Virus record (IMG/VR): IMGVR_UViG_3300023181_000382
Coordinates: 1 to 48,322 of that record
DNA length: 48,322 nucleotides
Direction: 5' to 3' (one strand)
Origin: a virus
A program made the translations under genes and the position numbers. A model generated the notes under the pieces. That model was not told the origin of the DNA and made no database searches. It saw nothing but the letters and a program-made list of their open reading frames with translations. Position 1 is the stretch's first letter; each line of letters begins with the position of its first letter. Below, one piece after another: positions 11,030 through 43,895 of the stretch.

Positions 11030-11047
11030 ACTGATTTAAAAAATTAG

Positions 11048-11134
11048 CGGGGAGTACAGGATTCGAACCCGTGAACCAGTTGCCCGGTCGGTCGTTTAGA
11101 AAACGACTGCTTTCAGCCACTCAGCCAACTCCGG
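11048..11134 (-). tRNA. Type II (serine-like) tRNA with UCU anticodon and mismatched acceptor
   Basis: The 87-nt minus-strand sequence folds as a tRNA with long variable arm: D-arm GCT/AGC, anticodon stem GTCGT/ACGAC with loop TTTCTAA (anticodon TCT at 11098-11100), variable arm ACCGG/CTGGT with GCAA loop, and T-arm ACGGG-TTCGAAT-CCTGT. Long variable arm, D-arm sequence and a G at position 73 are serine-tRNA features, but UCU decodes Arg AGA/AGG. Acceptor pairs 3-7 are good (GGAGT/ACTCC); positions 1 and 2 are C opposite C. CCA is not encoded. A promoter lies just upstream and a terminator just downstream. It could be an altered functional tRNA or a decayed one. Confidence 0.8.
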
Positions 11135-30289: not shown

Positions 30290-30315
30290 AAAAACGGCCT
30301 TAAATAAGCCGTTTT
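30290..30315. terminator. Bidirectional terminator between converging genes
   Basis: AAAACGGC / GCCGTTTT stem with a small internal bulge, A-run on one side and T-run on the other. It serves the membrane-protein gene on the plus strand and the methylase operon on the minus strand. Confidence 0.8.
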
Positions 30316-30964
30316 AAGCGTTCGGGTAAAACAAAATAGACTTGGTGTTGTTTTTCCAATATTCATAATTTACCGCCAAAGAAAACCGCGGTTTTTCGAT
30401 ACCTAACGAATTCATGCAGTGAATTTCCGCGCGGACTTCGTGAAAGCATAAATTTATCGCTGTCATTTTGCAGCAAATCGGGTCGAGATCCTGACAAATA
30501 AAATAATTTCCTTTTACGTGGTGATTGCTCGCCAAAATCATCCGACCACTACCGCAGCACGGATCATTTACGGTGATTCCCCAATTTTCAGGCTCTTGTA
30601 TCATCATCGCCATCATAGTGCAAAGCGCCGGCGGTGTAAAGAATTGCCCAAAGTTTGATTTTTTATAATTTCCTGCAAGGCATTCGTAATATTCGCCAAG
30701 CGGATCGCACCAATGATCGGGCGTGTGTCTGTCGTAAATTTTCACAAGCTCGGCAAATAATCTGCAAAGTGTGTCGAGTTCTTTCCTATCATATTTTTTT
30801 ATGGTTTCCAAATATAAATTTTCTTGCGTCTGGTGTCCCATTGCACAAACGATGACGGTTAGCAGATCATCAAAAACGCGGCTCAGGTCGTGCTTGTATT
30901 GAAATTCAAAAAATAAGGAGTTGAACGCGGTCAACTCCTTTGGAATATCTCTATTTTTTAGCAT
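30314..30964 (-). CDS. N6-adenine DNA methylase-like protein lacking motif IV
   Basis: A 216-residue protein of the type I/HsdM-like N-6 methylase group. GQFFTPPALCTMM near 105-117 and DPCCGSGRM near 133-141 are the X and I (SAM-binding) motifs, followed by CQDLDPICCKMTAINL. The (N/D)PP(Y/F) catalytic motif expected after the EIHCMNSL strand is absent: the sequence reads FSLAVNYEYW and ends. Short relatives of this form are common on plasmids and phages. It may bind SAM or DNA without methylating, or use another loop. It overlaps the ArdC-like gene by 14 bases. Confidence 0.8.
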   Translation of the reverse strand: MLKNRDIPKELTAFNSLFFEFQYKHDLSRVFDDLLTVIVCAMGHQTQENLYLETIKKYDRKELDTLCRLFAELVKIYDRHTPDHWCDPLGEYYECLAGNYKKSNFGQFFTPPALCTMMAMMIQEPENWGITVNDPCCGSGRMILASNHHVKGNYFICQDLDPICCKMTAINLCFHEVRAEIHCMNSLGIEKPRFSLAVNYEYWKNNTKSILFYPNA

Positions 30965-37754: not shown

Positions 37755-38381
37755 ATGAAAAATTTATTTTTTATTGGTGCTGCACTGTGTATGATAACTT
37801 GCAAACAGCAATCCGCTAAATCTGAACTGCCCGTAGATATTTCTGTCTCTGATACAATTCTTGCAAAAGAAAAAGCAATTGTAATTGACAGCTCTAAAAT
37901 TAAACAACTAAGCAAATATTTTCATTTTAAAAAGGATGAATTTGACAAAGAAGATCTAACTTGGGTAATTCCGAAATCGGCTCCAAAATTTGTAAATCGA
38001 AACGGATTATACTGTTGTTTTACATTGAAAAATAATAAACCAGTACAATTTGTTTTTAGCGTGCAGTATTTGGCTGATGATTGGCTATTTATAAGAAATT
38101 GTGATCTTCTCATTGATGGTAAAAAATTTCATTTAGAGCCTTCAGAAGTTAAAAGAGATAATGGTGATGGTGAAATTTGGGAATGGTTTTCAGAAAGAAT
38201 TTTTCTAACAAATCATGACTTTGTTGACGCATTAGCAAGTGCGTCGAAGGCAAAAATAAAACTTAATGGGGATAAGTATTATGAATCTAAAGAGATTTCA
38301 AAATCTCAAATACTAAATATCAAAAGAACATTGGAACTTTATAAGGCAATGGGCGGGGATTTTACTTATTCCGAAATTTAA
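37755..38381 (+). CDS. Phage-encoded lipoprotein, likely accessory gene
   Basis: A 208-residue protein with a signal peptide (MKNLFFIGAALCMITC) and a Cys at 16 that fits lipid attachment, although the residue before it is Thr, less usual than Ala/Gly/Ser. The next residues KQQSAKSE lack the surface-export signal of Bacteroidetes clearly. The mature part is a mixed alpha/beta domain with WVIPKSAPKFVNRNGLYCCF and DWLFIRNCDLLIDGKKF. It stands alone with its own promoter and terminator. Phage lipoproteins of this kind often block superinfecting phage at the receptor. Confidence 0.65.
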   Translation: MKNLFFIGAALCMITCKQQSAKSELPVDISVSDTILAKEKAIVIDSSKIKQLSKYFHFKKDEFDKEDLTWVIPKSAPKFVNRNGLYCCFTLKNNKPVQFVFSVQYLADDWLFIRNCDLLIDGKKFHLEPSEVKRDNGDGEIWEWFSERIFLTNHDFVDALASASKAKIKLNGDKYYESKEISKSQILNIKRTLELYKAMGGDFTYSEI

Positions 38382-38383
38382 TG

Positions 38384-38411
38384 AGATGTGCAAATGCACA
38401 TCTTTTTTTTT
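38384..38411 (+). terminator. Terminator after the lipoprotein gene
   Basis: AGATGTGC / GCACATCT stem, AAAT loop, eight or more T. It starts 2 bases after the stop codon. Confidence 0.9.
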
Positions 38412-38423
38412 GCCCACTCAATA

Positions 38424-38431
38424 TATATTTG
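38424..38431 (+). promoter_or_regulatory. -7 box driving the structured RNA
   Basis: Exact TATATTTG. RNA would start near 38437, which is 6 bases before the first helix of the structured element. No clear TTG at the usual distance; the region upstream is a T-run. Confidence 0.6.
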
Positions 38432-38436
38432 TACGT

Positions 38437-38597
38437 TTGCTTTGCTAAAATACCTAAGGAGCAATCCTACAAAACTTTTTTTAAAGTAAACATAAGCGAA
38501 CCCTCGCCATGGTGCCCAACGGAAACAACGGGAATCTATCCTTACGGGTATTTTAGCACACCTAAAGCGAGGGTTTCGTGCGTAAATATTTTTCGAT
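38437..38597 (+). ncRNA. Candidate structured RNA with pseudoknot
   Basis: No gene fits this 161-base stretch, but it holds strong complementary segments. Helix A: TGCTAAAATACC (38443-38454) with GGTATTTTAGCA (38547-38558), 12 perfect pairs. Helix B: CGAACCCTCGC (38497-38507) with GCGAGGGTT-T-CG (38567-38578), 11 pairs with one bulge. The order A, B, A', B' makes a pseudoknot. Local hairpins AGGA-GCAA-TCCT (38457-38468) and ACTTT-TTTT-AAAGT (38474-38487) lie inside. A hairpin TTTAG-CACAC-CTAAA (38552-38566) would compete with helix A. It may be a regulatory leader of the gene at 38598 or a free RNA. No known class recognised. Confidence 0.6.
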
Positions 38598-38885
38598 ATG
38601 CTAAAAGAAAAAATTACACCACAACAGTCTGTCCAGTTCTGGGCAGAACTAAAAGTAGTGCTTGCCGATTTACTTAATTCCGGCAAACCAAAAGAACACA
38701 CTCACACCCTCGACATGATGTTTGAGGCATTCCTGATTACCGAATTTGGAAACGACCAGCAGGACCGCAATAAGTTCTATATGCTGAACTGCCATTTCAA
38801 AGCCTTATTTAAGGTTCTGAAGAAGCATAACATATTTCCCGGCGATATGCCGATGGTACCGGATGCTCAAACCATTGTGTCATGA
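38598..38885 (+). CDS. Small protein before the tape measure (possible tail chaperone)
   Basis: A 95-residue helical, soluble protein. With the next gene it occupies the place of tail-assembly chaperones before the tape measure, though the two are joined by an ATGA overlap and no obvious slippery frameshift site. Starts 20 bases after the structured RNA helix. Confidence 0.6.
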   Translation: MLKEKITPQQSVQFWAELKVVLADLLNSGKPKEHTHTLDMMFEAFLITEFGNDQQDRNKFYMLNCHFKALFKVLKKHNIFPGDMPMVPDAQTIVS

Positions 38886-39286
38886 GCCGCAATTATCCTA
38901 AAACCGTGCTTACCTTCCTTGATGGTAAGTCAATTTCCTATGATCGCTATTCGTTTAAGGAGGTTATGACTGAAATTTTTAGCAATCATTTATTTGATAA
39001 ACGCGAGCCGCTGAAAATTACTATTCCCGATAAAAATCTTACGCTGTATTGCAATATGCAGACGATCCATAATTTTATCTCTGGAGAAATTTCGCGACAG
39101 GAACTGGAAGCGTATCTTAAATGCGATGATTTGTACCGGAACACCCAGAACGTGAAAACTGATCTGCATCGCGAAGAAATAGACGAAGGATGCCTTTGGC
39201 GTCGGATCGGCGATGAAGTCATTTTGATTAACGACGATTTATATGTCCGCGCTCCATTTAAACCTGACCTTTTTGAAGTCATTTAA
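38882..39286 (+). CDS. Hypothetical protein before the tape measure (possible tail chaperone)
   Basis: A 134-residue alpha/beta protein, starting 4 bases inside the previous gene. Contains ENEKLTLYC-like hydrophobic strand (KNLTLYCNMQTIHNF) and an acidic C-terminal half. Position suggests a tail assembly role, perhaps the second chaperone. Ends 2 bases before a terminator. Confidence 0.6.
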   Translation: MSRNYPKTVLTFLDGKSISYDRYSFKEVMTEIFSNHLFDKREPLKITIPDKNLTLYCNMQTIHNFISGEISRQELEAYLKCDDLYRNTQNVKTDLHREEIDEGCLWRRIGDEVILINDDLYVRAPFKPDLFEVI

Positions 39287-39368: not shown

Positions 39369-42300
39369 ATGGCTAAACTGATTTCTGACGAGAAAATGAA
39401 ATTCTCCTATGTGCTCGATGGTAATCAGGCGCAAAAGGATCTTAATGATCTGGAAAAATCTACACGTAAACTTACCGAAGAAAATAAAGGGCTGCTGCTT
39501 CAAAAAAAATTGCTTGAGAAGCAAAATAAGAAAGATTCGGACGAATACAAATTACTCACAAAAACCATTGCCGAAAATAATTTAGTCATCAAGGCAAACA
39601 AAGCCCAGATGTCTGAACTTCAAAAAGAAATTGGCATCACCGGTTTAACGATGAATCAACTTCAACGTCGGGTCAACGAGTTAAAAACTAATCTTCGAAA
39701 TCTTGTTCCCGGTACAGAACTTTACAATAAATATAAAAAAGAGTTAGGCGAAGTCAGCGACCGCATGAAAGAGTTATCCGGAAATGCAAAAGAAGCCAAA
39801 TCTTCTCTTGGCGCAATTGCTGACGGCTTCAATCGATACGCTGCACTTGCAGCAACGGTGATTGCTACGCTAACGGGTGTCGTTCTGTCAATCCAGAAAG
39901 TAATTGATTTCAACGGCAAGCTTGCCGACGCAACATCAGACGTTATGAAGACTACCGGCATGACCAAGCGAGAGGTTGACGAATTGTCGAAATCATTCGG
40001 ATTGCTTAAAACCAGGACGGATCGTATTCGCTTGCTGAAGATCGCGGAAGAAGGCGGAAGAATTGGCGTTGTTAAAGAAGAGATTGCCGACTTCGTAAAT
40101 GTTATGAATAAAGCTGCTGTCGCATTAAGTGACAGTTTCACCGGTGGTGTAAGCGAAGTCGCATCGAAGCTTGGTAAGCTCAAATTTTTGTTTAAAGAAA
40201 CAAAAGATATGTCTGTCGACGAGGCCTATAATAAAATTGGATCATCGATAAACGATTTGGGTGCTGCCGGTGTTGCTAGTGAAGTGAACATAGCAGAATT
40301 CGCAACTCGTGTTGGATCACTTCCTGATAAATTAAAACCATCAATTGCACAAACCTTAGCATTGGGTGCTGCATTCGAGGAAAGCGGGCTTGAAGCAGAG
40401 GTTTCATCCAGGGCCTATAATATCTTCCTGAAGCAAGCCTCGACCGAAAGTGGAAAGTTTGCAAAAGTGATGGGAATTACCCAAAAAGAGGTTGAGAAAA
40501 TGATCAACACGGATCCGTTGGAATTTTTCCTTCATTTCTCAGAAGGCCTTCGGGGAATGGATGCTACTGAAATTGCAAAAACGCTCGATTATTTAGGAGT
40601 AAATGCTGACGGCGCCAATAAAGCACTTGGAGCCGTTGCTAATAATTCGGAGCGCTTCAGGGAGCAGATGGATCTTTCAAATAATTCTTTCGCATTAGGG
40701 ACTTCTTTGATTAAAGAATATGATATCAAGAACAACAATTTTGCAGCTACGCTTGAGAAAGTTAAGAAATATGTTGTGGGTTGGTATTCTTCAGACACGT
40801 TTGTTTTGTGGCTCACTGATGCTGTAAATTGGATTGCAATATTCATTGGAGCTGTCGATGATACTGACGGATCAATGGCGAAATGGAAAGCCAATATGAT
40901 GGCTGTCGTTAAGATCATTGCTGTTTTGATTGCAACTACAGTTTCCTATACAGCCACAAACAAGCTTTTATGGCTGTGGACAAACAGAAATACGGAAGCG
41001 ACAGCATTATACAATCTCGTTCAAAAAGCCAAGGCAATTCAGTTGGGAATCACTCGATTCGCATTACTCGCATATGAAGTGGTTCTTGGTTTGGTAACCG
41101 GGAATCTTCAGCGCGTTACAGCGGCAACAATCGCTTTTAACGTTGCTACAAAATCGACGCCTTGGGGTCTGATCATTGGATTAATTACGGCCGCTGCCGG
41201 TGCATATTTTGCTTTTAGTGAAAGCGCTGAAAAGGCCGCGGAAAAACAAATAACATTTGCTTCTCAACTCAAGCAGTTGTCACGTGATACGTCAGCGGCG
41301 ACGGCTGAAACTAAAGCAAATGTCACTTCACTTATGACAGTTGTAAAAGACGAGGCTGTAACGTTTGGTTCCCGGAAAAAGGCTTATGAGGAATTGATCC
41401 GGATTTCACCGGTCTTTAACGGCTTCCTAAAAGATGAAAAATTCAATATCGAAGGATTGGTCATTGTGTATCAGGACTATTTAAAAGCTCTTGATCAGGT
41501 CGCTTATGCAAAATCATTTGCAAGTCTCAATGTCGGAAACATTAAAAAACAAATCGCGGCACAACAAGAGCTTTACCTTGCTGAGAAGCAAATGGCCGAA
41601 GCCAGTAAAGCTTACGATGACTATGCAAAGAAAACTTCCGGAGCGAATTTCGGCAATCGTGATCTGGAACTCTATCGAAAATTGATCGGAGACCGTGAAA
41701 CAGCAAAAGAAGCAGTAAAATTAGCCAAAGCCAATTTGCAGGATGCTAATAAATTGGTTGAAGACACAAATAAATTCCGGAATAATCAAATCAGTGTCCT
41801 TGAAACCAATATTAAACTTCGCGAAAAACAACTGCTGGATCTCGAAACGAAATATGGTGCCGATGTTGCGAAAAAAAGCTCAGGTTATAGGCAAATTGCT
41901 TTAAAGTTAGAAGCTGATAGACAGGCACTCGAAAAACTCATACCGAAAGGGACCACCGGTGATCCAAAGTCAAATTATAATGTTCCGGACGGAAAGACAG
42001 ATGTAGCCAAAAAAGATCCAAACAAAACACAAGCCGAAATTAACAAAGAGCGTCTCGACAATGAACGTAAGTTTCAGGATGAACTTTTAAAATTAAAACG
42101 CCAAGGTCAGGACGATGAAATCGCATTGATGAAAGACGGTTACGCCAAAGAGGAGTTACTGGAAGTTCGCCGTTACCAGCGCGAAATTGAAGAGTTGGAA
42201 AAGCAACGCGTGCATACTGATGAAATGGCAAAAATTGATGCAGATATTTCAAAGGCTAAAAAAAATGGTGATATCAAGTATTATGATTTTTTAGTTGGAC

Positions 42301-43895
42301 AAAAGCGAGTCTGGGCAAAAAGAAACGAGCAAATTGACGAGCAGATTAACTCTATTGAAGCCGGGAAATTATCTATCCATCAAATGCGTTTGGGCATTAT
42401 TCAAGAGAAAGGCGCGCAGCAGCAGCTGGAGAAAATTGACCAAAAATACAAACGTGAAAAAACAATACGGGAAACGGCCTTCAACTTGGAACTTGCGGAA
42501 GTTACTACACTTGTTCAGGCAAAAGAAAAATTAAAAACAACCCATCGTAAAGATGAATTGGATAATCTGAAGAATTTGGATGCAGCCAAAAAATTGCTTC
42601 AGGAGGATTTTAATAATAAAGAGCTAGAACAGGACAAAGAATTTCTAAACCGTCTCATCAAAAATCTTGAGACGATTATGAATGCCAAAACTTTTGAAGG
42701 AATTGATTTGGACTTGCTTACTCCTGAAATGAGAGAAAGATTTACAAAGCAAATTGAAGAAGCTGCAAATCTTCACAGCAAGTTAGTCGAAGCAACTTCC
42801 GGAAAAAATCAACCAAAAAACACCAAAGGTTTCACTGACCCTGAACTCGAAGCAAAAGATAATGCAGCTCGTGAATTATTCCAAAGCCAAAATGGTGTTG
42901 ATATTTTAGGCTACACACCTGAACAGTGGCAAACTGCTTATTCACACCTCGATACTTTCTGGGAACGAATGAATGCAGGTGTAATGGTAATTGGAGCGTT
43001 ACAAAATGCGTGGTCGCAATACGGGGCTTTGGTCGAAGCAAAAGAAAAAGTGCAGCTTCAAAATAATCAAACCGCAAACAATGTAAAGAAAGAGCGCCTG
43101 AAGAAGTTGCTCGACAGCGGATTCATGACTCAAAAAACATACAACAAAGCCGTTGAAGGCCTTGACCGGGAATATGACAAAAAGAAAGCCGAAATCGAAT
43201 TGAAGCAGGCCAAGCGAAATCGTACGATTGCTTTAATGGAAATCGTCGCCAATACAGCTAAAGGTGTCATGTCTGTAATGTCAACCGGTGGTGGAACCAA
43301 TTACGCTGACTTTGGTGTTTCGGCAGCGCTGCTTTCAGCGCTGGTCATTGCAACCGGAGCGATACAGGCTGCAACGGTTCTTAAAACACCGCTTCCGTCA
43401 GCAAAAGGTTATGAAAAAGGTTTGTACAATGACAGAACCATGCGCGAGCAGGACGGCAAAGTTTTCAAGACCACTTGGGGAGGAAAGGCGAGGAGTGGCG
43501 AAGTCAAAAAACCCACTGTTTTCATGGCCGGCGAAAAAGGAGTGGAAATGATCATTGACAATAAAGCCTGGTCACAAATGTCTTCGCCGGTTAAGGATGC
43601 ATTAATGCGCGAGCTGCGTGGAGTTCGTGGATTCGAGGAAGGATTATATAATGAAGCGACAAAGCGTTATGAAGTGCCGGTATCTTCGAAAACCGATTCA
43701 TCTTCCGGAAGTTCTGATACGTCCAGAATTTTAGAAATGGCGCTTAAAATCCTTTCAGAAAACACTCAGGTCATGCGCGAGATTAAAGAACAGGGAATCA
43801 TCGCTAAAGTCTCAAATAAAGATCTGCGCTCAATGAAAAACCTAAAAGATGGAATGAAGGAATATGAAAAATTAAATCAAAAATCAGCAAAATAA
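39369..43895 (+). CDS. Tape measure protein
   Basis: A 1508-residue tail-length protein. Residues 1-145 are coiled coil. Residues 155-480 match the tape-measure core (NKLADATSDVMKTTGMTKREVDELSKSFG-type). Hydrophobic segments lie near 155-175, 510-535 and 598-616; at least one should cross the host membrane. Long Lys/Glu/Gln coiled coil at about 880-1130 follows, then a hydrophobic stretch near 1315-1335, and a C-terminal part with two GxEEGLYN/GYEKGLYN motifs around FMAGEKGVEMIIDN. If the usual ~0.15 nm per residue holds, the tail is roughly 220 nm. The gene overlaps the next start by one base. Confidence 0.92.
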   Translation: MAKLISDEKMKFSYVLDGNQAQKDLNDLEKSTRKLTEENKGLLLQKKLLEKQNKKDSDEYKLLTKTIAENNLVIKANKAQMSELQKEIGITGLTMNQLQRRVNELKTNLRNLVPGTELYNKYKKELGEVSDRMKELSGNAKEAKSSLGAIADGFNRYAALAATVIATLTGVVLSIQKVIDFNGKLADATSDVMKTTGMTKREVDELSKSFGLLKTRTDRIRLLKIAEEGGRIGVVKEEIADFVNVMNKAAVALSDSFTGGVSEVASKLGKLKFLFKETKDMSVDEAYNKIGSSINDLGAAGVASEVNIAEFATRVGSLPDKLKPSIAQTLALGAAFEESGLEAEVSSRAYNIFLKQASTESGKFAKVMGITQKEVEKMINTDPLEFFLHFSEGLRGMDATEIAKTLDYLGVNADGANKALGAVANNSERFREQMDLSNNSFALGTSLIKEYDIKNNNFAATLEKVKKYVVGWYSSDTFVLWLTDAVNWIAIFIGAVDDTDGSMAKWKANMMAVVKIIAVLIATTVSYTATNKLLWLWTNRNTEATALYNLVQKAKAIQLGITRFALLAYEVVLGLVTGNLQRVTAATIAFNVATKSTPWGLIIGLITAAAGAYFAFSESAEKAAEKQITFASQLKQLSRDTSAATAETKANVTSLMTVVKDEAVTFGSRKKAYEELIRISPVFNGFLKDEKFNIEGLVIVYQDYLKALDQVAYAKSFASLNVGNIKKQIAAQQELYLAEKQMAEASKAYDDYAKKTSGANFGNRDLELYRKLIGDRETAKEAVKLAKANLQDANKLVEDTNKFRNNQISVLETNIKLREKQLLDLETKYGADVAKKSSGYRQIALKLEADRQALEKLIPKGTTGDPKSNYNVPDGKTDVAKKDPNKTQAEINKERLDNERKFQDELLKLKRQGQDDEIALMKDGYAKEELLEVRRYQREIEELEKQRVHTDEMAKIDADISKAKKNGDIKYYDFLVGQKRVWAKRNEQIDEQINSIEAGKLSIHQMRLGIIQEKGAQQQLEKIDQKYKREKTIRETAFNLELAEVTTLVQAKEKLKTTHRKDELDNLKNLDAAKKLLQEDFNNKELEQDKEFLNRLIKNLETIMNAKTFEGIDLDLLTPEMRERFTKQIEEAANLHSKLVEATSGKNQPKNTKGFTDPELEAKDNAARELFQSQNGVDILGYTPEQWQTAYSHLDTFWERMNAGVMVIGALQNAWSQYGALVEAKEKVQLQNNQTANNVKKERLKKLLDSGFMTQKTYNKAVEGLDREYDKKKAEIELKQAKRNRTIALMEIVANTAKGVMSVMSTGGGTNYADFGVSAALLSALVIATGAIQAATVLKTPLPSAKGYEKGLYNDRTMREQDGKVFKTTWGGKARSGEVKKPTVFMAGEKGVEMIIDNKAWSQMSSPVKDALMRELRGVRGFEEGLYNEATKRYEVPVSSKTDSSSGSSDTSRILEMALKILSENTQVMREIKEQGIIAKVSNKDLRSMKNLKDGMKEYEKLNQKSAK

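Follow-up and report, generated by a model that had tools for sequence, protein, structure and literature searches.

The c4 RNA is a classic antisense RNA, known mainly as the control that phage P1 exerts on its antirepressor. The P1 record has the elements in the order a1, b1, c4, a2, b2, icd, ant1; a1 and a2 both read TTGACAG, and the complementary CTGTCAA lies inside c4. One report (PMC5320573) describes the c4 RNA of P1 and P7 as processed by RNase P to an RNA of ~77 nt, and also describes the Group 1 C4-like sRNAs of Acinetobacter baumannii, which have variable a' segments and are apparently processed from longer RNAs. A parallel in function is the sar RNA of phage P22, another phage antisense RNA, which prevents a lytic-cycle gene from being translated by blocking initiation (PMC12197685).

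The locus described here lies in a viral record of 48,322 bases, called the window in its whole length, and takes the form of a structured stretch that precedes the tail genes. This stretch is very probably a divergent subgroup of c4-type antisense RNA, belonging to the Rfam c4-2 clan and located in the leader of a tail operon. New here are the target at a start codon, the tail-operon context and the solitary chromosomal relatives.

The leader of the tail operon and its fold

The features of the locus, by position in the window, are the following.

38385-38411, + strand: intrinsic terminator-like hairpin (GATGTGCAAATGCACATC and a T run) at the end of the upstream gene, seen in the sequence and also in aligned phages
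38409-38412, + strand: -33 element TTTG, 19 nt before the -7 box, seen in the sequence (TTTG at a spacing of 17-21 nt in 18 of 49 homologues)
38432-38439, + strand: -7 box TACGTTTG (TAnnTTTG) with a predicted start at G38444, from conservation and the published box position
38444-38460, + strand: a1, the 5'-terminal strand (GCUAAAAUACC and UAAGGA), a copy of the gene start that would pair with a' and the P3 region in the precursor, from complementarity and covariation
38474-38487, + strand: putative small A/T-rich leader hairpin, ACUUU/AAAGU, seen in the sequence
38497-38507, + strand: 5' strand of c4 stem P1 (helix B of the first-pass annotation), from the Rfam alignment and covariation
38511-38514, + strand: inner part of P1, GGUG, partner of 38559-38562, from covarying pair types in homologues
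38515-38532, + strand: hairpin P2, CCC/GGG around GGAAAC, in predicted folds and aligned with P2 of c4-2
38537-38550, + strand: hairpin P3 of the putative processed form, UAUCC/GGGUA, which excludes helix A, in predicted folds
38551-38558, + strand: a', the antisense 8-mer UUUUAGCA, predicted to be unpaired in the c4 fold and complementary to a1 and a2
38559-38562, + strand: CACC, partner of 38511-38514, from covariation
38567-38578, + strand: 3' strand of c4 stem P1, from the Rfam alignment and covariation
38599-38606, + strand: a2 (UGCUAAAA), a target that overlaps the next gene's AUG, from complementarity and covariation
38598-38885, + strand: 95-aa gene, the candidate regulated gene, its product predicted to be all-helical
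38882-39286, + strand: phrog_38077 gene, next after the 95-aa gene, with an ATGA overlap
39369-43895, + strand: tail tape measure gene (Pfam PhageMin_Tail), its protein 53.5% identical over 770 residues to that of Flavobacterium phage 1H

Two long interlocking helices had been noticed in the first-pass annotation; both are present at the positions given there, and both are supported by compensatory changes in 49 distinct homologues. In helix A, TGCTAAAATACC (38443-38454) is the exact complement of GGTATTTTAGCA (38547-38558), and beyond a 2-nt bulge the pairing is extended by TAAGGA (38455-38460) with TCCTTA (38539-38544). Helix B pairs CGAACCCTCGC (38497-38507) with GCGAGGGTTTCG (38567-38578), with one bulged U, and extends inward through GGUG (38511-38514) and CACC (38559-38562). 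The fold of 38432-38600, in which the RNA is structured as far as the start codon, lies 2.9 sd below dinucleotide shuffles, and the helix-B domain alone folds 3.2 sd below shuffles. Together with the covariation described below, the two helices and these fold statistics bear out the early description of a structured, pseudoknot-capable RNA before the tail genes.

The RNAalifold consensus consists of P1, P2 and P3, with a' left unpaired. Helix A and P3 share letters and are hence mutually exclusive. A switch-like hairpin in competition with helix A had thus been rightly suspected, and it is formed by 38537-38541 and 38546-38550; the hairpin then proposed, at 38552-38566, is absent from the predicted folds.

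The promoter was likewise right in kind and wrong in place. In the window, the box TACGTTTG (38432-38439) stands 4 nt before a1, and a TAnnTTTG box is found 4 nt before a1 in 39 of the 49 homologues, 5 nt before it in 7 and as a one-letter variant at 4 nt in 3. The originally named TATATTTG (38424) is matched in 20 of 49 only. In F. psychrophilum the promoter box is located at -12 to -5 (PMC9723704), and the RNA start is therefore predicted at G38444, the first letter of a1; by this analogy, a sigma-A promoter would start the RNA at a1.

Downstream, the ATGA overlap between the 95-aa gene and the phrog_38077 gene implies that the two are probably translationally coupled. The 95-aa protein is all-helical in an AlphaFold2 prediction (pLDDT 73.8) with the topology of a chromosomal relative, whose predicted structure reaches a pLDDT of 87.5; a fold search with this relative gave no match at E below 2. 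The structure work used alignment A6, which is alignment A4 minus four rows. Among the window ORFs that were scanned there was neither an integrase nor a repressor. A 208-aa ORF at 37755-38381, between tail genes and the c4-2 element, has a weak match to phrog_7678, and the phage records that were opened have other, unrelated small genes at its position. By its looks, this ORF is an accessory gene that has a terminator of its own.

Probable assignment to the c4-2 family

The first-pass annotation had matched the stretch to no known RNA class, a statement that does not hold. Rfam c4-2 (RF02944) matches 38500-38576 end to end with 38.7 bits (E 4e-7), 2.3 bits under the Rfam gathering cut-off of 41, and the layout is that of the annotated P1 c4 antisense RNA. 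The homologue in phage 6H is over the cut-off with 49.4 bits; some relatives score below the window, among them L009 with 30.9 bits. The c4 arrangement of stem P1 with its inner stem, P2 and P3 is present in the Rfam alignment, in the covariation and in the predicted folds.

No Rfam riboswitch or ribozyme family was matched, and at gathering cut-offs the window gave tRNA only; a tRNA-Arg gene with anticodon TCT is located at 11047-11134 on the minus strand. When 38400-38640 was searched at E up to 10, the only Rfam matches were c4-2 and, on the opposite strand, mir-320 by chance. The Rfam output gives the best family per clan only, so that with c4-2 reported the score of RF01695 is not displayed. 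The 5'-terminal strand and a UAAGCG motif had prompted the consideration of a group I intron P1/P10 pairing and of HDV-like and twister-like ribozymes, and these were rejected, as there was no Rfam ribozyme match.

Copies of RF02944 over the cut-off number 4-5 in each of the five Flavobacterium genomes tested, with scores up to 74.5 bits, and there are none in 14 control genomes; in the phylum at large, at least 9 of 296 genomes have the family. Most of the high-scoring copies inspected lie before a gene of ~77 codons, with the target just before the ATG and the mimic upstream. At the loci L064-L080, Flavobacterium chromosomes have several high-scoring copies, mostly before this ~77-aa gene (MSTKTLSKETE...), for which no match was found in Pfam, NCBIfam or PHROGs.

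Homologues and a covarying set of three strands

A protein-based search of viral contigs gave no relatives of the 95-aa gene, and DNA patterns of the most conserved letters were for this reason used to find homologues. These patterns located the element in ten viral contigs, partly from the same phages, and at 38 loci in genomes of Flavobacterium or of Flavobacteriaceae/Flavobacteriales; no plasmid in the collection had it. Similar DNA is also present in 12 Flavobacterium phage records, and the four records that were opened (Duneviridae, Unahavirus) all have it before their tail genes. The set of homologues consisted of 49 distinct sequences, taken from phages and chromosomes of Flavobacterium. 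The second viral pattern scan gave mostly false positives (L016, L017 and L019-L023), and L013 and L090 were false positives too; all of these were dropped. Filters were stricter in the whole-genome scans over 40 genomes, and the counts from these scans are lower bounds.

In the phages, the first gene usually encodes a small protein and is followed by a phrog_38077-like gene and then the tape measure gene. In the phage 6H record (L004:4217 onward), the ORF from the regulated ATG is 34 codons long, and a long tail ORF opens in another frame; a frameshift in this copy, or an error in its sequencing, may be the reason. Solitary copies are many in the genomes, and several lie between metG-like and transporter-like genes in different species. 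At L036, L047, L058 and similar loci, a solitary c4-2 element with a ~91-aa gene occupies this place in several Flavobacterium species, and phage genes are absent from the 8-kb loci.

Across the 49 homologues in alignment A3, pairing holds in 98.7% of the cells of helix A, helix B and the inner stem, and 13 of the 26 pairs have changed on both sides. Covariation scores 0.360; shuffling gives 0.133 ± 0.008, and slid partners give at most 0.057. The inner stem comes as GGUG:CACC in 18 sequences, GUUG:CAAC in 17 and GAUG:CAUC in 14, and mismatched combinations do not occur. Covariation among homologues, the lack of which the first-pass annotation had named as a refutation, is thus present.

The first-pass annotation missed a third strand, the target at the next gene's start codon. 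The GCUAAAA at 38444, in the 5' strand of helix A, recurs in the AU-GCUAAAA at 38598 where the next gene starts, and a' is complementary to both. The existence of helix A is explained by this relation, since its 5' strand copies the start-codon target. Over seven letters, a' is the perfect complement of a1 in 49 of 49 homologues, and it is complementary to a2 in 48 of 49 when G-U is allowed (permuting a' among the sequences gives a mean of 12.8 and a maximum of 24). The covariation score with the start-codon pairing substituted for helix A is 0.330, against 0.125 shuffled. Many of the homologues are closely related, so the sequence counts are not independent events, and it is safer to go by the nine seven-letter types and the pair types. 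Eight of these nine types match their own target, and 1 of 72 cross-combinations does. Type GACUAAA differs from GACAAAA solely at a silent codon position and is still matched by its own a'. Covariation thus links all three strands, a1, a' and a2.

A covariance model built on the c4 domain up to the AUG alone added three members, L095, L097 and L098. By eye, their a1:a' match is 7 of 7 and their start-codon match 6, 7 and 6 of 7, respectively; the model contains neither a1 nor a2 beyond the AUG, which makes these matches out-of-sample. L097 adds a tenth seven-letter type.

It is worth asking whether the repeats could be read at the level of DNA, as a mobile element or recombination site with a1 and a2 as direct repeats flanking about 145 bp and an inverted copy between them, or as what is left of a gene in decay. 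At the positions that differ between a1 and a2, however, a G in a2 replaces an A so that a G-U pair with a' is kept (the single exception is L054), which argues for pairing in RNA, and in every homologue a2 lies at an ORF's AUG. A decayed gene, which the first-pass annotation had itself held out as a way to be wrong, would not be expected to have a conserved promoter 4-5 nt before a1 together with compensatory changes. We consider a DNA-level element scarcely credible. A mobile element with target duplication was rejected on the same G-U evidence. Ribosome bypassing between the two UGCUAAAA copies was also considered and set aside, as the transcript is predicted to begin at the first copy and no conserved ORF precedes it.

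An autoregulatory leader is another reading of a structured RNA in this position: the small protein, or another tail protein, would bind the pseudoknot and control its own translation. Most copies do precede small protein genes with related N-termini, and yet the RNA is unchanged before unrelated proteins, among them Bro-N (L037), phrog_38077-like proteins (L007/L010) and others (L097/L098), which leaves this reading very improbable.

The L037 locus also has a match to RT-17 RNA at 144-226 (40.6 bits, cut-off 40.4), ~100 bases upstream of its Bro-N-targeting c4-2 element. In the window itself, a gene with an N6_Mtase domain on the minus strand (30314-30964) starts with ATGCTAAAAAAT (30957-30964), which includes the UGCUAAAA target of the regulated gene; the c4-2 RNA may have another target in trans here, or the match may be due to chance.

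A putative off-switch and its relation to known systems

The c4-like RNA is probably an off-switch for the phage tail operon. The order of its parts is seen directly in the letters as promoter, a1, c4-2 fold with a', a2 at the start codon, and a small gene that overlaps the next. By analogy with the c4 RNA of P1/P7, processing and repression may proceed as follows. Transcription would begin at a1, as in P1/P7 c4, and the transcript would have two fates, being either read through as tail-gene mRNA or processed to c4-2 RNA. In the full-length mRNA, the a1:a' pairing (about 17 bp, in a pseudoknot with stem P1) would shield a', so that the message does not silence itself and the start codon is free. 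Removal of the 5' leader, presumably by RNase P as in P1 and Acinetobacter (PMC5320573), would let the c4-2 domain refold, with P3 forming and UUUUAGCA becoming exposed. The exposed segment could then pair in trans with the UGCUAAAA that overlaps the AUG in other copies of the tail-operon mRNA and block initiation on the small gene; since the next gene overlaps it by 4 nt, translational coupling would bring that gene under the same block. The c4-2 RNA would in this way keep the tail operon off in a lysogen or early in infection. Initiation in the Flavobacterium group takes place without Shine-Dalgarno pairing (PMC9723704), and for this reason the AUG itself is a fitting target.

The same strands could in principle act purely in cis, as a translational switch of the riboswitch or thermosensor type in which a ligand or the folding kinetics decides between a':a1 and a':a2. 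Within a single molecule, a1 and a2 do compete for one strand; a1, the first of the two to be transcribed, forms by far the stronger pairing, and structure in the leader reaches to the start codon. The a1:a' pairing is the stronger one in 49 of 49 homologues; in the window it amounts to -26.7 kcal/mol, against -7.9 kcal/mol for a2:a', which is limited to 7-8 pairs. So strong a helix, however, would keep the gene on permanently for as long as a1 is in place. Moreover, the RNA folds like a known antisense RNA that acts in trans, no conserved unpaired core resembling a pocket was found beyond the c4 fold, and the targets include unrelated proteins. A cis switch is therefore unlikely, and we favor the off-switch acting in trans.

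Under the trans-acting reading, about 50 natural sets reveal their antisense, decoy and target in the sequence itself, and these sets provide predicted orthogonal RNA repressors and a directly testable immunity hypothesis. The hypothesis, which we put forward as a doubtful speculation, is that the seven-mers of a' form a code of heteroimmunity: each of at least nine types would silence only tail operons with the same start, and the solitary chromosomal copies in Flavobacterium would provide RNA-based immunity by shutting down the tail genes of matching incoming phages.

The closest relatives in fold are the members of RF02944 (clan CL00128), with which the window shares P1 with an inner part of the GGUG:CACC type, a CCUAAA strand, the GGAAAC of P2, and P3; in the high-scoring Flavobacterium copies, too, a mimic lies upstream and a target ahead of the gene that follows. 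They differ in that their target is just before the ATG of the ~77-aa gene, whereas in the window subgroup it comprises the AUG and first codons of other genes. The subgroup also has a longer a1:a' helix and, where measured, scores of 30-52 bits.

The closest relative in layout is c4 of P1/P7 (RF01695). Both systems have a promoter, a1, c4, a2 and a small gene in this order, with an upstream copy a1 of the target and an antisense segment complementary to a target at the translation start. The small gene overlaps the next one by 4 nt in both, icd (73 aa) overlapping ant1 in P1, against 95 aa for the small protein of the window. P1, in contrast, has two antisense segments, a' and b', with b2 upstream of icd, and the window has one, over the AUG; by inspection, no b'/b2 pair as in P1 was recognized in the window subgroup, which has a longer a1:a' helix instead. 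The P1 operon encodes the antirepressor ant1, whereas the window operon leads into tail genes, with no antirepressor gene between the c4 element and the tape measure gene. Antirepressor-type genes are nevertheless carried in the operons of some relatives, with Bro-N (L037, the direct target), P22_AR_N (L046) and KilA-N (L012), and by eye KilA-N-like sequences in L009 and L050. The Group 1 C4-like sRNAs of A. baumannii, as presented in the report cited above (PMC5320573), resemble the Flavobacterium set as chromosomal c4 relatives with a variable a'; in the Flavobacterium set, by comparison, the cis-linked target is visible by covariation. The c4 architecture is thus found at phage tail genes and as solitary chromosomal modules, with the start codon as its apparent target, in a group that does not rely on Shine-Dalgarno pairing.
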